Made by a program: the position numbers and the translations under genes. Shown one piece after another: positions 582-25,298 of a DNA stretch of 54,958 nucleotides. A model generated the notes under the pieces. It was not told where the DNA came from and made no database searches. It saw only the letters and a list, made by a program, of their open reading frames with translations. Where the stretch lies: the IMG/VR virus record IMGVR_UViG_3300020214_002535, positions 1 through 54,958 of that record; one strand, given 5' to 3'. This stretch comes from a virus. How positions within the stretch are numbered: position 1 is the first letter of the stretch; the number at the start of each line of letters is the position of its first letter.

Positions 582-1553
582 TTAAAACCTGAAACTTGAT
601 GAAACAAATTTATCTAATTTTGTCAAAAACCTATCTTCCCAAAATAAAGGTTTTGCAATATTCAATGCATCTTCAAACTCTGCCTTAGACATGTTACCAG
701 GATCTCCCCATGGTCGAACGTCGACAACAACAACATCTACATTATATTCTTGTAGCTTCTTTACGATCTTAGGAGTTTTCTTGTCCCACATGTCACCATC
801 AAGAGCTAAAGCGACTGGAGTGTTATGAAGGAGAATTTTATTAAGAACTTCGTGACGTTCATCAAGGTCGGAGCCCAACAAGGCTGTTGTGTTTTCAGGA
901 CACTTAACAAGGTCGAATGGGCCTTCAACTAAGGTCAGTCTTTTTGACCAGTCAATGTTGATCTCATTGAAGACAATGGGGTTTTTATCGACGTCAGGAT
1001 TATCATACTTAGGTTTTCGATCTTTGTCTATGGCTCGAGCTGCAAAGTAATTCAGCTCTCCGTTGCAATCAAAAGACGGCATAATGACCCTGCGTTTCCA
1101 ACGAACTTCATCCGATATACCAAACTTGAAGTACCAAGTATCACGATCCGTCAATCCTCTAGAATAGACGTATCGCCACGCCGCCTTGACATCAGGATCC
1201 ATATCATTTGCCAATGCCAACAATCGAAAATCTTTTGGTAGCTCAATCTTTTGGTTTTTTTCGATATCTGCAGTTATCAGGCTTGATTTGCCACCATGAC
1301 CTGTTAATTCTCGATATGCGTTGAGGTGTTCCTGCGTTCCGTATTTTCGTAATAGTGGAGCAAGGCTTCGGGCCTTCCATCCGCATACCCAACAGTGAGA
1401 GACGCAGCTGGGCAAAAGAATTGAAAGTTTCTTTTTTTGTGCGTCTAAAGGATTACAAATTGGGCATTTAACATCAAAATTATTATTTTTTGATAATCTT
1501 CCTTTTCCAAAAACTGACTCAATCAGTTTGACTAGGCTCGTTAACGATGCCAT
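582..1553 (-). CDS. DNA primase, zinc-ribbon plus Toprim
   Basis: This 323-residue protein has an N-terminal zinc-binding ribbon (C30, C33 and C54, C57) and a Toprim domain with the catalytic glutamate in LVEGPFD (E210) and a DxD pair in LDGD (D252, D254). Length and architecture match compact phage primases such as T4 gp61 rather than helicase-fused T7 gp4. It would make RNA primers for lagging-strand synthesis together with a separate replicative helicase not present here. The first 35 bases overlap the end of the upstream homing-endonuclease gene. An AGAAG stretch upstream of the ATG may serve as ribosome binding site. Confidence 0.88.
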   Translation of the reverse strand: MASLTSLVKLIESVFGKGRLSKNNNFDVKCPICNPLDAQKKKLSILLPSCVSHCWVCGWKARSLAPLLRKYGTQEHLNAYRELTGHGGKSSLITADIEKNQKIELPKDFRLLALANDMDPDVKAAWRYVYSRGLTDRDTWYFKFGISDEVRWKRRVIMPSFDCNGELNYFAARAIDKDRKPKYDNPDVDKNPIVFNEINIDWSKRLTLVEGPFDLVKCPENTTALLGSDLDERHEVLNKILLHNTPVALALDGDMWDKKTPKIVKKLQEYNVDVVVVDVRPWGDPGNMSKAEFEDALNIAKPLFWEDRFLTKLDKFVSSSFRF

Positions 1554-2535
1554 TTAACGCTTCTTCTCTTTCTCGTCTTTTTCTTTCTGCTCTTTCAAGC
1601 GCTCTAATCTTATTTGATTTAGCGTTTTTTCTTTTTGCTTCTTCTGATTGAGGTTTCCCATATGCAGGGTTTTTTGATCCTAACTTAGCCTGTCTGCATT
1701 TTACAATTTCTTCTTTTTGATCAAGCTTTTCTTTTTTCTTTTTTTCAATAAATTCTAAACGTTTTTTTCTCATTTTTTCTTTTGTTTCTTCGGAGACAAA
1801 ATGGCCCAAGAGTTTTTTTCTAATTTTTTCTTTCATTTCCTCAGAAGGTTTCCACCCATCACGAGATTTTTTTTGTTTTTCTCTGTATTCCTGAGAAGAC
1901 CAATTTTTTTTGGCATCTTCGCTTTTTTTCATTTTTACTTCTGGGTCTGAACAGTGTTCTTTCATTAAATCACTTTTTAATTTTTTAGTTTCAGACCTGT
2001 TTTGTCCTTCGACTCGCGCTTCGTGCGTTACCGAATTTCTTGCAAGCTCTAGCGAACGTAACATATGCTCTTTTCCAGCTTCGGTCGAAATCCAACTTTT
2101 CATTGCTTTGCTTTTTTTATTTTTTGTATTTTCACTATTTTGAATTTTAACTAATTTTTCTCTTTCTTTTTGGTTTGACCATCTAGATTTCATCCTATCT
2201 GACCTTCTTACTTTTTCAACTTTTGAAATTCCGCTTAAACCTTCTCCACCCTTTGTGAAATTACATCCAAAATCTTCATCAGAAACGTGGTATCCTTTAG
2301 CTAAAGTTTTGTATTCCTTTATTAAGTCAATTTCTTTTTTGTTTGCTTCATTTTCATCGTGCGTTTCAAAAACAACGATTCTTTGAATTCCAAATCTTTT
2401 TGAAATCGCAGAGTGTTTTTTATTTCTTTTAAGCTGATCTACTCTTCTTTTAGAGCCTTTACCAACATAAAAGATTCTTGGATTTGTTTCTAAAGTCTTG
2501 TCTACGTAGACGAATTTTTTTGTGATAGTATGCAT
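1519..2535 (-). CDS. GIY-YIG homing endonuclease with NUMOD-type repeats
   Basis: Residues 9-27 carry a GIY-YIG signature of the VY...FYVGKG kind, followed by a basic segment and a conserved acidic helix (EIDLIKEY). The C-terminal two thirds is Lys/Glu-rich with repeated SEE-x-K-x-K motifs and a NPAYGKPQSEEAK segment typical of NUMOD3 DNA-binding modules. I place the start at 2535 because a GAGGG ribosome binding site lies four bases before it; a longer form from 2553 is possible. The gene overlaps the 3' end of the RuvC gene by 34 bases and the primase start by 35 bases. It probably behaves as a selfish free-standing endonuclease. Confidence 0.85.
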   Translation of the reverse strand: MHTITKKFVYVDKTLETNPRIFYVGKGSKRRVDQLKRNKKHSAISKRFGIQRIVVFETHDENEANKKEIDLIKEYKTLAKGYHVSDEDFGCNFTKGGEGLSGISKVEKVRRSDRMKSRWSNQKEREKLVKIQNSENTKNKKSKAMKSWISTEAGKEHMLRSLELARNSVTHEARVEGQNRSETKKLKSDLMKEHCSDPEVKMKKSEDAKKNWSSQEYREKQKKSRDGWKPSEEMKEKIRKKLLGHFVSEETKEKMRKKRLEFIEKKKKEKLDQKEEIVKCRQAKLGSKNPAYGKPQSEEAKRKNAKSNKIRALERAERKRREREEALNGIVNEPSQTD

Positions 2536-3074
2536 GTTGCCCTCGCTACACAATAACTATCAGTTGCGTCTCTAGACCAATCAACTATTTCACCGTTTTT
2601 CTTTGTTGGCCAGGTGATGTGTTTTAGGTCGTGTTCTGCCATGTACTTGAAGACCTGTTCCTTGCCGCTCATCCCGGCGAGCGACGTCCTCTGTATCTTG
2701 ATTCCGCACAACTTTCGAGCCGAGGAAGATGCGATATACTCCGGATCTACCTTGAATATTTCGCGAGAGATATAGGACGTGATGCCGTTGAATCTCATTA
2801 GGGTTGTGATGGTGGTTGCGGAGGACATTCCTGTTCGAAATCCCATCAGGGGTTCCTCAAGAACAACCTTATAGGTTCCTGGATATTTTTTGGAGAGGTT
2901 GTGAAGCTCGAGGGCCGTGAGGTCGGCTTTTTCCCATAAGGTCTTGCATTTTTTAAATTCGATGTGATCCAGGTGAAGAATGTGGGATCCTCGGTCGTCA
3001 GGTTGAATGTCAGGATTGACTATGCAAACCCCTGTCACCGAAGTTGAAACATCTAAACCCAAAATTAATTTCAT
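2502..3074 (-). CDS. RuvC-like Holliday junction resolvase
   Basis: The 190-residue protein begins with the RNase H-fold strand LILGLDVSTSVTG, giving the first acidic ligand D8. Further candidate ligands are E73/E74 in VVLEEP and D169/D172 in WSRDATDSY near the C-terminus. This D-E-D-D arrangement is that of RuvC-type crossover junction endonucleases, which resolve branched DNA before packaging. T4 uses an unrelated endonuclease VII, so this phage appears to use a RuvC type. The last four bases of the methyltransferase gene overlap its start. Its 3' end has been invaded by the homing-endonuclease ORF without disrupting the resolvase frame. Confidence 0.85.
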   Translation of the reverse strand: MKLILGLDVSTSVTGVCIVNPDIQPDDRGSHILHLDHIEFKKCKTLWEKADLTALELHNLSKKYPGTYKVVLEEPLMGFRTGMSSATTITTLMRFNGITSYISREIFKVDPEYIASSSARKLCGIKIQRTSLAGMSGKEQVFKYMAEHDLKHITWPTKKNGEIVDWSRDATDSYCVARATCILSQKNSST

Positions 3075-21687: not shown

Positions 21688-22284
21688 TCATTGACCAATA
21701 ATCTTATCAACAATGCCTAACTTAATAGCATCTTCTGCAGAAAGATAATAATCATGACCAGATTTCATAATTGATTCAATATGTTCTACTGTCATATTCG
21801 TTTCTTTTTGTAGAGCATTTGTCATAAGATGATGTAATCTCTTATGTTCATTTGTCTCATTTACTGACTCAAAAACGTTTCCGTAAAATCCGCCTGAAAT
21901 TGGATGCATCATAAGTCTCGCAGATGAACCAATCATTCTCTTTCCTTTTACTCCAGAAGCAAGTAAAAGAACTCCAGCTGACATGACTTTTCCTAATGCG
22001 ATTGTATGAACTGGACATGGCAAGAATCTTATTGTGTCATAAAGAGAAAACATTTCATCTACAGATCCACCATATGTTGATACGACTAAATGAATTGGCT
22101 TATGATTTTGATTGGCAAGATATAATAATTGTACTATGGTTGCGGCAATTGATTGCTCACTTACTCCTCCATATAGAACAACGATTCTTGAATCTGTACC
22201 ATGGTTAACCAACATCCCTGGATCAAATTCGTCAGAATTTGTTTTTGAAACTAATTTATTTTGAGGTTCAGCTGATCGTCCCAT
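21688..22284 (-). CDS. clpP: ClpP-type serine protease
   Basis: The 198-residue protein is a full-length ClpP with its catalytic triad at S102 (GKVMSAG), H127 (MMHPISG) and D178 (HDYYLSA), with spacings of 25 and 51 that match bacterial ClpP. The oxyanion GGSVDE motif is at 72-77. I choose the ATG at 22284 because AAGGAAA lies a few bases upstream; a start at 22326 would add 14 residues with no ribosome binding site. It overlaps the upstream small gene by 17 bases. No Clp ATPase is encoded here, so it would pair with a host ATPase or serve as a prohead protease. Confidence 0.88.
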   Translation of the reverse strand: MGRSAEPQNKLVSKTNSDEFDPGMLVNHGTDSRIVVLYGGVSEQSIAATIVQLLYLANQNHKPIHLVVSTYGGSVDEMFSLYDTIRFLPCPVHTIALGKVMSAGVLLLASGVKGKRMIGSSARLMMHPISGGFYGNVFESVNETNEHKRLHHLMTNALQKETNMTVEHIESIMKSGHDYYLSAEDAIKLGIVDKIIGQ

Positions 22285-22513
22285 TATTTTCCTTTTTTGA
22301 TGAAATAAAAATATCTTCTCCTGCAATTTCTTTTATAACATCTGCTAGCGCCTGTACATGCTCAATATTTTCAAGTTCTAAAGACAATAGGTAAATTAAA
22401 AACATATGTTGCCTTTGGGTCAAGCCTACGTTTAAAATTTCTCTAACTATCCTTCGACAGTCTTCATTTTCACAAGCCAGTTTTTCAGAATTTAGCTGAC
22501 CATAAGTTTGCAT
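22268..22513 (-). CDS. Hypothetical small protein
   Basis: The 81-residue product is not recognised. It begins MQTYGQLNSEKLACENEDCR and has two helical, Leu/Ile-rich segments (residues 25-65) with no transmembrane character. A CENEDC motif might bind metal, but one pair of cysteines is not enough for a zinc site alone. It sits between a zinc-ribbon gene (seven bases upstream) and clpP, which it overlaps by 17 bases, so translation is probably coupled to clpP. Whether it is a ClpP adaptor is only a guess from position. Confidence 0.55.
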   Translation of the reverse strand: MQTYGQLNSEKLACENEDCRRIVREILNVGLTQRQHMFLIYLLSLELENIEHVQALADVIKEIAGEDIFISSKKENNGTIS

Positions 22514-22520
22514 ATTTTAC

Positions 22521-22991
22521 CTAGACATTTTCTTTTCTAATGTGAGTATCTACCTTAAATAAAGATTCTCCTAAAATTCTAACATACTTGATTATTCTAT
22601 TATCATCTTCTAAATCGCTGGTTAAGATTATAAAATCTCCCCACCTTTTATTTTCAATTACAAATTGTGAATGTTCCCATGTAGGTAAATCACAATTATG
22701 TCTTTCAAGTATGGAAATAAGCGATTGATTCATACTTGGTTTTATGTCATCAATCGTTAAAATAGATGACATTGCTTCTTTACCAGGCATTATTTCAGAG
22801 GTGCATATGTCAGTAACCTTATGGATTATTCCGCAGTTGTTACATTGAGAAAATTTATGCTTTACAACATCGTTTTCTATAGTCGAAAAAACTAAAAATC
22901 TATGTTGTTTTTTTTCTATGTCAGTAGAGTTTTTAAACTGTGGTAAAACGCATCTACAACTTATAAGATGCTTTTGTCCAGTAGTCGACAT
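22521..22991 (-). CDS. Conserved-looking phage protein with split zinc ribbon
   Basis: The 156-residue protein has two cysteine pairs, C12-x-C14 in ISCRCVLPQF and C50-x2-C53 in QCNNCGIIH, that together look like a zinc ribbon. The second half contains PTWEHSQFVIENKRWGDFII, a Trp-rich block. The general pattern (CRCVLPQF followed about 35 residues later by CNNCGIIHKVT) recalls uncharacterised proteins in marine T4-like phages, but that is memory rather than a search. Function unknown; a nucleic-acid-binding or assembly role is possible. Confidence 0.6.
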   Translation of the reverse strand: MSTTGQKHLISCRCVLPQFKNSTDIEKKQHRFLVFSTIENDVVKHKFSQCNNCGIIHKVTDICTSEIMPGKEAMSSILTIDDIKPSMNQSLISILERHNCDLPTWEHSQFVIENKRWGDFIILTSDLEDDNRIIKYVRILGESLFKVDTHIRKENV

Positions 22992-23004: not shown

Positions 23005-23274
23005 TTATTTTCTTTTTTTTAAAGATGATTCACTTGGACTTAGTTTTTTTTTAACTTCTTCATCAAGAAGTTTTTCAAACTTATTCGAAGTACTTTTATG
23101 ACTTTTTGAATATGCCTCTGAAATAGAAGCATCGATTAAAGAGAAAAGTTTTGGAAGAGAATCTTGATTTAAATCTAACTGTTTTGAAGAAACAGCAGAA
23201 GTTATATTTTGTTTAATCATATCTTTAGTTACTTCAACTAATTCCCAAGAAAGCTTATCTAAATTGTTATTCAT
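23005..23274 (-). CDS. Hypothetical small charged protein
   Basis: This 89-residue protein is predicted largely helical and ends in a basic tail (SSLKKRK). No motif is recognised. It lies 41 bases after the end of the GroEL-like gene and 13 bases before the zinc-ribbon gene, in the same orientation. Amino-acid usage is ordinary for the phage. It is kept because it fills the gap with a complete frame in the operon direction. Confidence 0.5.
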   Translation of the reverse strand: MNNNLDKLSWELVEVTKDMIKQNITSAVSSKQLDLNQDSLPKLFSLIDASISEAYSKSHKSTSNKFEKLLDEEVKKKLSPSESSLKKRK

Positions 23275-23315: not shown

Positions 23316-24515
23316 TTAAACAATAGTTGCCCCTATATTTTTTATTTGCAATAAAAAATTTTCAGAAAGTTTTTTTGAAATTTGTAATGTAGCATTTAGC
23401 ATTACTTTGTCATTTTTTAAAACTATTCCATAGTCCAGCATAGATCTAATTGAACGTAAAGATCTATCAATAAACTGTCGTTTTAAAATATACGATGAGT
23501 CGTCGGCGAGCCTTATTATGACGTTTATTCCAGATAGAGATCTAATTCTACAAATTAAAAGATTTTCTATATCTTCATTTGAAGATTTTACTTTTTGCAG
23601 CAAATTATTGATGTGCACACTAACATTTCTTTTTGAACTTGAATTTTTTATTACTATAGAATCATGAATTATCGTTACTTCATCGAGCTGAATAGCATCA
23701 GATATTTTTATAGAAGATATTAGTTCTCCAAGATTACAAGAAACTGGATTTGTTAAAGACACAGTTGACATGTCAACTATCGTATTAATTCCTTCTAGAT
23801 CAAAATTTATTATTATTGGATATACAAACATCGTTGATCGATCACGATTGACTTTTATTGTATTTAAAACATCATCATGCATTCCTCTAGAAACAAGCAA
23901 AATTTGTTCTTTAGTGTCTGAGGCTCCTTCGAATAACGTGTTAATTTCTGAGACAGATTCGATATATCCATCAATTAAAATTATTTTTGGTTTTGTTAAT
24001 CTTATCGAAGATAAACCTATAGGTTTATGTTTAAAAGTATAACCTTCTATTAGTTCTATAGAGTTGTAATCATTACTACTTTTTTCAACTGTTATTTTAC
24101 CAGCAAATCCAGCTAAATCAATTGCTTCTAACGTAAGATCAACCAAAGATTTATCATCGGTTTCATTTGAAATTAACGAAGAAAAATCTTCAAATTTAGG
24201 ACATAATACACACAATTCTTCTTTAAAAGAATCATTATGAACGATGTTTTTTGATATAAGTTCGAGCGTTAAATAAAATCCGCCAGGAGAAATACTTTCT
24301 GCTTTAAAGCAATAATCAATTAAGATTTTATGAATTAATTTCTTTAATTTATTTTCATATTTTTTATTGACGCATGCTTGAATATCTGTTTTTAATAAAA
24401 TTTTTTCTTTTTCTGATTGCAAAAAAGAATTATTTTCTATTGAAATAAGATTTTTTAAATCTTGAATAACATCACAAATAGATAGCCTGATATCATCAGC
24501 AAAAAAAACAGACAT
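23316..24515 (-). CDS. Highly diverged GroEL-like chaperonin, probably without ATPase activity
   Basis: The 399-residue protein aligns by eye with group I chaperonins. Its start (VFFADDIRLSICDVIQDL) matches the GroEL N-terminal helix. Residues 130-160 (AIDLAGFAGKITVEKS, then IELIEGYTF) match the entry to the apical domain, and 178-235 follow the apical strands through ILLVSRGM...LNTIKVNR. The later intermediate segment (283-363) also follows GroEL. Missing are the LGPKGRNV and DGTTT nucleotide-binding loops. The catalytic Asp398 position is R351 and the GGG loop is KND. It is about 150 residues shorter than GroEL. It may be a structural or modulatory derivative. Confidence 0.72.
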   Translation of the reverse strand: MSVFFADDIRLSICDVIQDLKNLISIENNSFLQSEKEKILLKTDIQACVNKKYENKLKKLIHKILIDYCFKAESISPGGFYLTLELISKNIVHNDSFKEELCVLCPKFEDFSSLISNETDDKSLVDLTLEAIDLAGFAGKITVEKSSNDYNSIELIEGYTFKHKPIGLSSIRLTKPKIILIDGYIESVSEINTLFEGASDTKEQILLVSRGMHDDVLNTIKVNRDRSTMFVYPIIINFDLEGINTIVDMSTVSLTNPVSCNLGELISSIKISDAIQLDEVTIIHDSIVIKNSSSKRNVSVHINNLLQKVKSSNEDIENLLICRIRSLSGINVIIRLADDSSYILKRQFIDRSLRSIRSMLDYGIVLKNDKVMLNATLQISKKLSENFLLQIKNIGATIV

Positions 24516-24546: not shown

Positions 24547-25176
24547 TTAAATAAACTTAACATGTTCCGATATAAAATTGTATACTAGCTTTCCTAATAA
24601 GCTAACTATAGCTCCGCCTAAAGATACTATCACCCATTTGGTAGCAGCATTATATTTCAAAATTGAAGCTTGAAGATCACGTATCATCGACTCATGCTCT
24701 AAAAGAAGTTTATCATTTTTTCCATCTTTTTCTTCATCTTTTACAGCTGTTTTCTCTTCAGATGATTTCCAAATTTTTATTTCTTGAACGTCTTTTTCTA
24801 AAGATTCAATAGATTCTTCTGAAGCACAATCATTTTCAATTTTTTTTACCCTTGCGTATAATCCTTTGTCTGGTTCGTATAAAACATCATGAATTTGATC
24901 AACTTTTTGTACTAATTTAGTTTGAGATTCTTCTATGTTTTCAATCTTATACATCAATGTAGTAAATCCGCCGTTCATCGACGGAGCCGCTAAAATCTTG
25001 TCTTGCATTTCAAGTATTTGTCGATAATTATTTTCGATTAAGTCGATAGCTTTTTTTGATATGGGTTCAAAATTTTCAATAAGTTTATCTTCTTTGTCAG
25101 ACCCACTTTTTTTATAGACTTTTTTTGCTTTACTTTCGAGTTGAATGTCTTGTGCTGTTTTTTTCTTTCTTGGCAT
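24547..25176 (-). CDS. Coiled-coil protein with C-terminal membrane anchor
   Basis: About 209 residues: a basic N-terminus (MPRKKKTAQD), a long charged heptad-like middle (IENIEESQTKLVQKVDQIHD and following), and one C-terminal hydrophobic span near residues 185-203 (WVIVSLGGAIVSLLGKLVY). I prefer the ATG at 25176, seven bases after GAGAG, over the one at 25182. The layout recalls XhlA-like or spanin/holin accessory proteins, which place a coiled coil next to a membrane helix, but no specific family is recognised. It is the last minus-strand gene before the divergent promoter region. Confidence 0.6.
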   Translation of the reverse strand: MPRKKKTAQDIQLESKAKKVYKKSGSDKEDKLIENFEPISKKAIDLIENNYRQILEMQDKILAAPSMNGGFTTLMYKIENIEESQTKLVQKVDQIHDVLYEPDKGLYARVKKIENDCASEESIESLEKDVQEIKIWKSSEEKTAVKDEEKDGKNDKLLLEHESMIRDLQASILKYNAATKWVIVSLGGAIVSLLGKLVYNFISEHVKFI

Positions 25177-25298
25177 ATACATTCTCTCTATTAGTGCTAA
25201 GATAAAAATCTAGAATAGAAGATCTATATTGATCTAGATTAATTTGATCTTTAAATATTAAGATTTAGATCTTATTTCTAATAAACGAGGAACAAAAA
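25177..25298. promoter_or_regulatory. Divergent promoter/operator region with GATCTA-type repeats
   Basis: This 122-base region separates the minus-strand block from the plus-strand sugar island. It is very AT-rich and carries repeated palindromic hexamers: AGATCT at 25220-25225 and 25267-25272, ATCTAGAT at 25232-25239, and related ATCTAGA/GATCTT copies. A possible plus-strand -35 TTGATC (25229-25234) lies 17 bases before TAAATA (25252-25257). The repeats look like binding sites for a regulator. Promoter assignment is by eye. Confidence 0.5.

Follow-up and report, generated by a model that had tools for sequence, protein, structure and literature searches.

Chaperonins are usually defined by an ATP cycle and a ring, and the order of structural elements in GroEL is known from crystal structures. 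The GroEL minichaperone is a laboratory fragment that consists of the isolated apical domain, with the hydrophobic groove intact. Among the chaperonins of large phages, that of phage EL is full-length and hydrolyzes ATP (PMC7185714), and the EL and OBP chaperonins have been reported to work without GroES (PMC5934643). The apical groove of the EL chaperonin is also altered (PMC7185714). In animals, MKKS, BBS10, BBS12, and CCT8L are divergent, fast-evolving chaperonin paralogues and, by prediction, do not assemble into standard rings (PMC2846930). In the open papers searched, no description was found of a family of shortened phage chaperonins that lack the ATPase.

The window, that is, the whole stretch of DNA analyzed here, corresponds to an IMG/VR record (54,958 bases) and is a fragment when set against relatives of up to 369 kb. 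It carries a gene for a short chaperonin-like protein, referred to below as the mini-chaperonin. The gene and its segments are as follows:

23316..24515, minus strand: mini-chaperonin gene, 399 aa, ATG start, stop included
24213..24515, minus strand: remnant of the first equatorial half (E1), residues 1-101, from predicted secondary structure and GroEL alignment
24048..24212, minus strand: first intermediate segment (I1), residues 102-156, from homology
23523..24047, minus strand: apical domain with remodelled groove, residues 157-331, from alignment and conservation
23430..23522, minus strand: second intermediate segment (I2), helix M, residues 332-362, in which the Asp398 position is Arg351
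23319..23429, minus strand: remainder of the second equatorial half (E2), residues 363-399, with a hairpin, a helix (374-392), and a strand (396-398)

An earlier note on this DNA had proposed a GroEL-like protein at 23316-24515. The frame is exact, it lies on the minus strand, which that note had left unstated, and the homology is significant in both PHROG and PDB. Residues 114-366 match phrog_5725 ("chaperonin groEL", E=9.6e-16), and a phmmer search against the PDB matched residues 118-379 to Thermus thermophilus GroEL (E=8.9e-11). With a profile of 37 relatives, PDB GroEL was reached at E=1.5e-27, and the homologous stretch comprises I1, the apical domain, and I2. The single window sequence did not reach Pfam Cpn60_TCP1 (PF00118) at E 0.1 and scored 43.8 bits with TIGR02348 against a cut-off of 582, so that curated family cut-offs were missed. 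An AlphaFold2 model of the monomer, built from the family alignment, has a pLDDT of 87.5 and a pTM of 0.73, and its top Foldseek match is GroEL (E=9.4e-26, TM up to 0.66, approximately 450 alignment columns). The profile and AlphaFold comparisons that the note had proposed as checks thus returned chaperonin matches and a predicted GroEL fold. The protein is a genuine homologue of group I chaperonins, albeit a very divergent one. Fold and descent place it in the chaperonin superfamily, and the tested defining features of a functional group I chaperonin are absent from it.

One of these features is the ATP site. When aligned with E. coli GroEL, the window protein lacks the LGPKG loop and has GGFYL in place of the DGTTT loop, for which the family has SPGGF. 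The position of Asp398 is Arg351, Gly414-416 read Lys-Asn-Asp, and Asp52, Asp87, Thr89-91, and Asp495 are all replaced. The set (LGPKG, D52, D87, TTT89-91, D398, GGG414-416, and D495) is kept in none of the 61 aligned mini-chaperonins. The absence of LGPKGRNV and DGTTT, the Arg at Asp398, and the KND at GGG, all noted earlier from this one protein, therefore hold on alignment, and the same losses occur in 61 aligned relatives. The 18 full-length chaperonins compared, including seven from contigs that also carry a mini-chaperonin (L163-L169), retain these positions almost unchanged. Judging by these motifs, ATPase activity has presumably been lost, and we infer a loss of general folding activity as well.

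Another feature is the complete three-domain subunit of approximately 540 aa, which the window protein, with 399 aa and a reduced E2, does not form. Its size also bears out the earlier estimate of about 150 residues fewer than GroEL (399 vs 548 aa). The segment order had been described as that of group I chaperonins, and the predicted elements do follow GroEL from the N-terminal strand as far as helix M, with the helix before the intermediate segment absent. In the AlphaFold model, the E1 remnant comprises a strand (3-5), a helix (6-25), a hairpin (31-42), and two further helices (56-75 and 79-93). After helix M, the model has no predicted elements beyond a hairpin, a helix, and a strand. E2 has approximately 115 residues in GroEL and approximately 37 in the mini-chaperonin, a loss of about two thirds. 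When the isolated N- and C-terminal segments were aligned with the GroEL equatorial halves by sequence only, no significant match was obtained. Longer relatives of 450-485 aa (L253, L255, L256, L258, L259, and L261-L263) helped here. Residues 5-458 of their profile align with GroEL 1-524 (probability 99.6, E=1.7e-24), including the last helix and strand of GroEL. Through these relatives, the helix and strand of the E2 remainder probably correspond to GroEL's last helix and C-terminal strand. Because the longer relatives align across nearly all of GroEL, the window protein is best described as carrying an internal E2 deletion and not a simple C-terminal truncation. The ATP-site motifs were looked for in the 450-485 aa relatives and are absent, and these proteins look like intermediates.

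A search of viral contigs with the single window protein found no relative. Relatives were first found through the neighboring helicase and PhoH genes and then with a family profile (59 loci), and a search with a neighboring Cys-rich gene added more, with 80 loci kept of 158. The mini-chaperonin gene is present on at least 80 further IMG/VR contigs, counted by contig name and including some near-duplicates. Most members have 370-430 aa, divergent ones approximately 450-485 aa, and one frame has 511. When five different mini-chaperonins were searched against 50,697 isolated phage records, no mini-chaperonin was recovered, only full-length GroELs or nothing. The sole match of the family pattern in 85k bacterial and archaeal species genomes was a Bradyrhizobium GroEL. 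In a viral structure library, all nine significant matches were chaperonins of at least 511 aa and none had about 400 aa, in agreement with the earlier statement that known phage chaperonins are near full length. In a tree of 31 mini-chaperonins and 18 full-length chaperonins, the former are set apart by a branch supported at 100/100. Their stem is 2.6 changes per site long with a weak attachment point, and two origins were weighed, from the phages' own full-length gene or by independent capture. The features found for the family are a single clade, no ATP site, a reduced E2, and a position upstream of the Cys-rich gene. The family is under purifying selection, with a dN/dS of 0.07-0.13 for close pairs and up to 0.20 for more distant pairs, for which dS is near saturation.

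The distribution of conservation within the protein is informative. In full-length chaperonins, the mean JSD is 0.57-0.71 across all domains. In mini-chaperonins, the apical domain is the most conserved part (0.49), and each equatorial part reaches 0.30. Conservation is therefore inverted relative to full-length chaperonins. As the apical domain is the most and the equatorial parts are the least conserved, selection acts chiefly on the apical domain, which favors a specific binding function over general folding. The apical domain contains the family motifs DGYIESVSE and RG.SDDV.HTLKVN.DR. Residues E186, E190, R210, and N223 are invariant or nearly so among mini-chaperonins, and the invariant positions of the 37-sequence alignment include E154, D182, G183, E186, E190, R210, N223, R226, N244, D248, G263, R323, and D350. 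The hydrophobic groove for substrate and GroES (Y199, Y203, F204, L234, L237, L259, V263, and V264) is not preserved, with Y199, Y203, F204, L234, and V263 changed or deleted. His or Asn occupies the Leu234 position in 60 of 61 mini-chaperonins, Lys or Arg (mostly Lys) occupies the Val263 position in 50 of 61, and most have lost the loop with Tyr203 and Phe204. Leu237 and Val264 are retained for the most part, and Leu259 partly.

The gene sits in a conserved block. The order divergent glycosyltransferase, coiled-coil protein, mini-chaperonin, protein of ~85 aa, Cys-rich protein of ~157 aa, protein of ~82 aa, ClpP, DinG-type helicase, and PhoH was found in approximately 50 of 61 loci. In the window, the nearest members are:

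24547..25182, minus strand: 211-aa protein upstream of the mini-chaperonin, an apparent coiled coil with a C-terminal hydrophobic segment; related gene in 49 loci
23005..23274, minus strand: 89-aa protein directly downstream, conserved in 48 loci
22521..22991, minus strand: 156-aa Cys-rich protein with invariant C12, C14, C50, C53, H8, and H57
22268..22513, minus strand: 81-aa predicted helical protein, conserved in 51 loci
21688..22326, minus strand: ClpP homologue (Pfam CLP_protease, E=1.1e-38), in which the Ser/His/Asp positions are in place on inspection

The invariant Cys and His residues of the 156-aa protein could form a metal site. Its AlphaFold model has a pLDDT of 89, but no fold match was found in the PDB. 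The Cys-rich family is present in at least 158 viral stretches and has no match among isolated phages. Among 77 loci fetched via this gene, the mini-chaperonin gene lies directly upstream in 75, one starts inside the gene, and one (L251) has no mini-chaperonin; it precedes the Cys-rich gene in 75 of the 76 assessable loci. Family and fold searches assigned no known function or fold to the small block proteins. A reading of the block as a defense system gained no support except from the DinG-type helicase.

Other observations concern the surroundings. In many relatives (L114-L119, L123-L124, L129-L130, L133, L143, L158, and others), the mini-chaperonin is separated from the next block gene by an opposite-strand gene of the glycosyltransferase cluster. 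In the window, positions 25299-53227 on the plus strand form a region of approximately 28 kb rich in glycosyltransferase and sugar-modification genes (nucleotidyltransferase, DegT aminotransferase, and ATP-grasp). A DNA primase gene or fragment lies at 582-3074 on the minus strand, beside a homing-endonuclease-like ORF (1519-2553) and a RuvC-like resolvase.

We favor the explanation that the mini-chaperonin is an ATP-independent, chaperonin-derived binding or assembly protein for one dedicated partner, most likely a product of its own block, and give it a probability of slightly under one half (about 0.48). It is favored on the basis of the loss of the ATP site, apical conservation, the changed groove, purifying selection, linkage to the block, and the GroEL-like fold. 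A group I chaperonin paralogue would have lost ATP binding and about two thirds of its second equatorial half. Its apical domain would have been rebuilt, the hydrophobic groove for promiscuous peptide and GroES binding giving way to a largely invariant polar binding face. The resulting protein would bind or assemble, free of ATP, one partner, which could be the 89-, 156-, or 81-aa protein or ClpP; both the single partner and its place in the block are our suggestion. Some points weigh against such a block partner. When a gene order is conserved in phages, the cause can be co-expression instead of contact, ClpP is missing from some loci, and the small block proteins have no known function or fold. 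Moreover, the predicted end strands and hairpin, which make subunit contacts in GroEL, seem to be kept, so that a ring, alone or with a full-length paralogue, is conceivable.

Such a paralogue exists. All eight tested mini-chaperonin contigs longer than 213 kb (369, 340, 324, 309, 298, 278, 267, and 245 kb) also encode a full-length chaperonin, as do contigs of 205 and 191 kb. It was not found on the 213 kb, 200 kb, and other shorter mini-chaperonin contigs tested, which may reflect that these are fragments. On the larger contigs, the two genes are separated by tens of kilobases to approximately 180 kb. GroES was sought in 16 contigs and not detected. The main rival is that the mini-chaperonin serves the full-length chaperonin of the same phage as a non-catalytic partner, which would form mixed rings with it or dock to it and alter client choice or cap the ring. 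We consider this a serious alternative, although an unlikely one. In its favor are the coexistence on large contigs, those that lack the full-length gene being shorter, and the absence of GroES from the 16 contigs; the end strands and hairpin for ring contacts appear to be kept in the model, and inactive paralogues play such roles in other ring machines, by analogy. However, the equatorial parts that would form the ring contacts are the least conserved, and the two genes are far apart. In a related marine group, whose PhoH is ~45-51% identical, the full-length gene is present in 7 of 16 contigs and a mini-chaperonin in one only (L065), whose gene order groups with the mini-chaperonin-carrying phages. 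Since related marine phages retain a full-length chaperonin with no mini-chaperonin found, the full-length protein can do without it. The same distribution suggests that the full-length chaperonin is older in these phages and the mini-chaperonin an addition.

Several small genes accompany the full-length gene. A protein of 93-110 aa (~50% identical among copies, ending in AWRKGQPVYVxVTK) precedes it, in the position of groES. A conserved small protein nearby resembles IF-1 by eye (ALPGTLFRVK...LSGKLR..HIRLLPGD.VTIEVSPYDLTRGR). On the 309-kb contig (L185), two further genes lie close to it.

L183:9064-9387 (minus), L184:6964-7296 (plus), L185:9048-9329 (minus), L186:9270-9560 (minus): 93-110 aa protein
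L183:6407-6694 (minus), L184:9718-9969 (plus), L185:3548-3880 (minus), L186:896-1198 (minus): IF-1-like protein
L185:11683-12657 (minus): ADP-ribosylglycohydrolase
L185:15021-15830 (minus): papain-type cysteine protease

The 93-110 aa protein is a candidate non-canonical co-chaperonin: its L183 copy matches nothing in PHROG and nothing convincingly in Pfam, and a search of these contigs for Cpn10 came back empty.

A role as a virion or scaffold component, or as a morphogenesis chaperone for one structural protein, is clearly less probable. Large phage proteins are the presumed clients of full-length phage chaperonins (PMC5934643, PMC7185714), and large proteins with no informative family matches lie 3' of the block in the window. 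The block itself, however, contains no recognizable head, portal, or tail gene; the genes around the mini-chaperonin encode a homologue of ClpP, a helicase of the DinG type, PhoH, and small proteins. The presence of ClpP in the block in 53 loci would fit an ATP-independent cap or adaptor of this protease, acting through the seven-fold symmetry that both families can share, but this is improbable because several loci (L123, L126, L136, and L159-L161) retain the mini-chaperonin with no ClpP nearby. The earlier note was right in proposing a reused chaperonin fold with no ATPase site; its suggestion of a regulator of host GroEL found no support. A regulator or decoy of this kind would be in keeping with a GroEL-derived apical domain, but is just as improbable as the ClpP cap, since the apical and equatorial contact surfaces have diverged strongly, the large contigs encode their own full-length chaperonin with ATPase motifs, and nothing points to the host protein. 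That the gene is a decaying fragment, a pseudogene, or an assembly artefact, as a shortened protein with no active site might suggest, is hardly credible, and the pseudogene reading was rejected in practice because of intact frames on at least 80 further contigs, purifying selection (dN/dS of 0.07-0.20), invariant residues, and a fixed gene order.

Together, the data suggest that many uncultivated giant phages carry a second, shrunken copy beside a normal-looking GroEL-type machine, rebuilt into the dedicated binding protein that we favor. A bolder scenario, possible but doubtful, is that a chaperonin was duplicated and one copy eroded stepwise, first to 450-485 aa and then to approximately 400 aa, until it became a ring or adaptor that needs no ATP and serves private partners (the Cys-rich protein, the two small proteins, and ClpP). 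If true, an infected cell would run two chaperonin-derived machines at once, each with a different job. With apparent intermediates still extant, a large family that has kept its fold, and in which selection is strongest on the apical domain, despite the loss of the ATP site would show a folding machine changing its role. It would also show what an apical domain is capable of with no ATP, and would mean that giant phages with a GroEL-like protein of their own possess a second protein derived from a chaperonin.

Compared with known systems, the animal proteins MKKS, BBS10, BBS12, and CCT8L resemble the mini-chaperonin, by analogy, in their evolutionary route only. They are eukaryotic group II proteins that largely retain a chaperonin-like core, and have no specific relationship to it. 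Like the mini-chaperonin, the GroEL minichaperone is centered on the apical domain and is independent of ATP, a property that is presumed for the phage protein. Unlike that fragment, the phage protein keeps intermediate segments and reduced equatorial parts, and its groove is polar. With GroEL/Cpn60 (phrog_5725 and TIGR02348), it shares homology over I1, the apical domain, and I2, a match of the whole model, and longer members that span nearly all of GroEL; it differs in the missing ATP site, an E2 of ~37 vs ~115 residues, an altered groove, and a length of 399 vs 548 aa. The chaperonins of EL, OBP, and AR9 are likewise encoded by large phages, and the groove change is shared with EL. The mini-chaperonin is not of the full-length, ATP-hydrolyzing, GroES-independent EL/OBP type, given its motif loss and length. 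Their counterpart in the mini-chaperonin-carrying lineage is instead the separate full-length gene (L163-L169), in which the ATP-site motifs are present.
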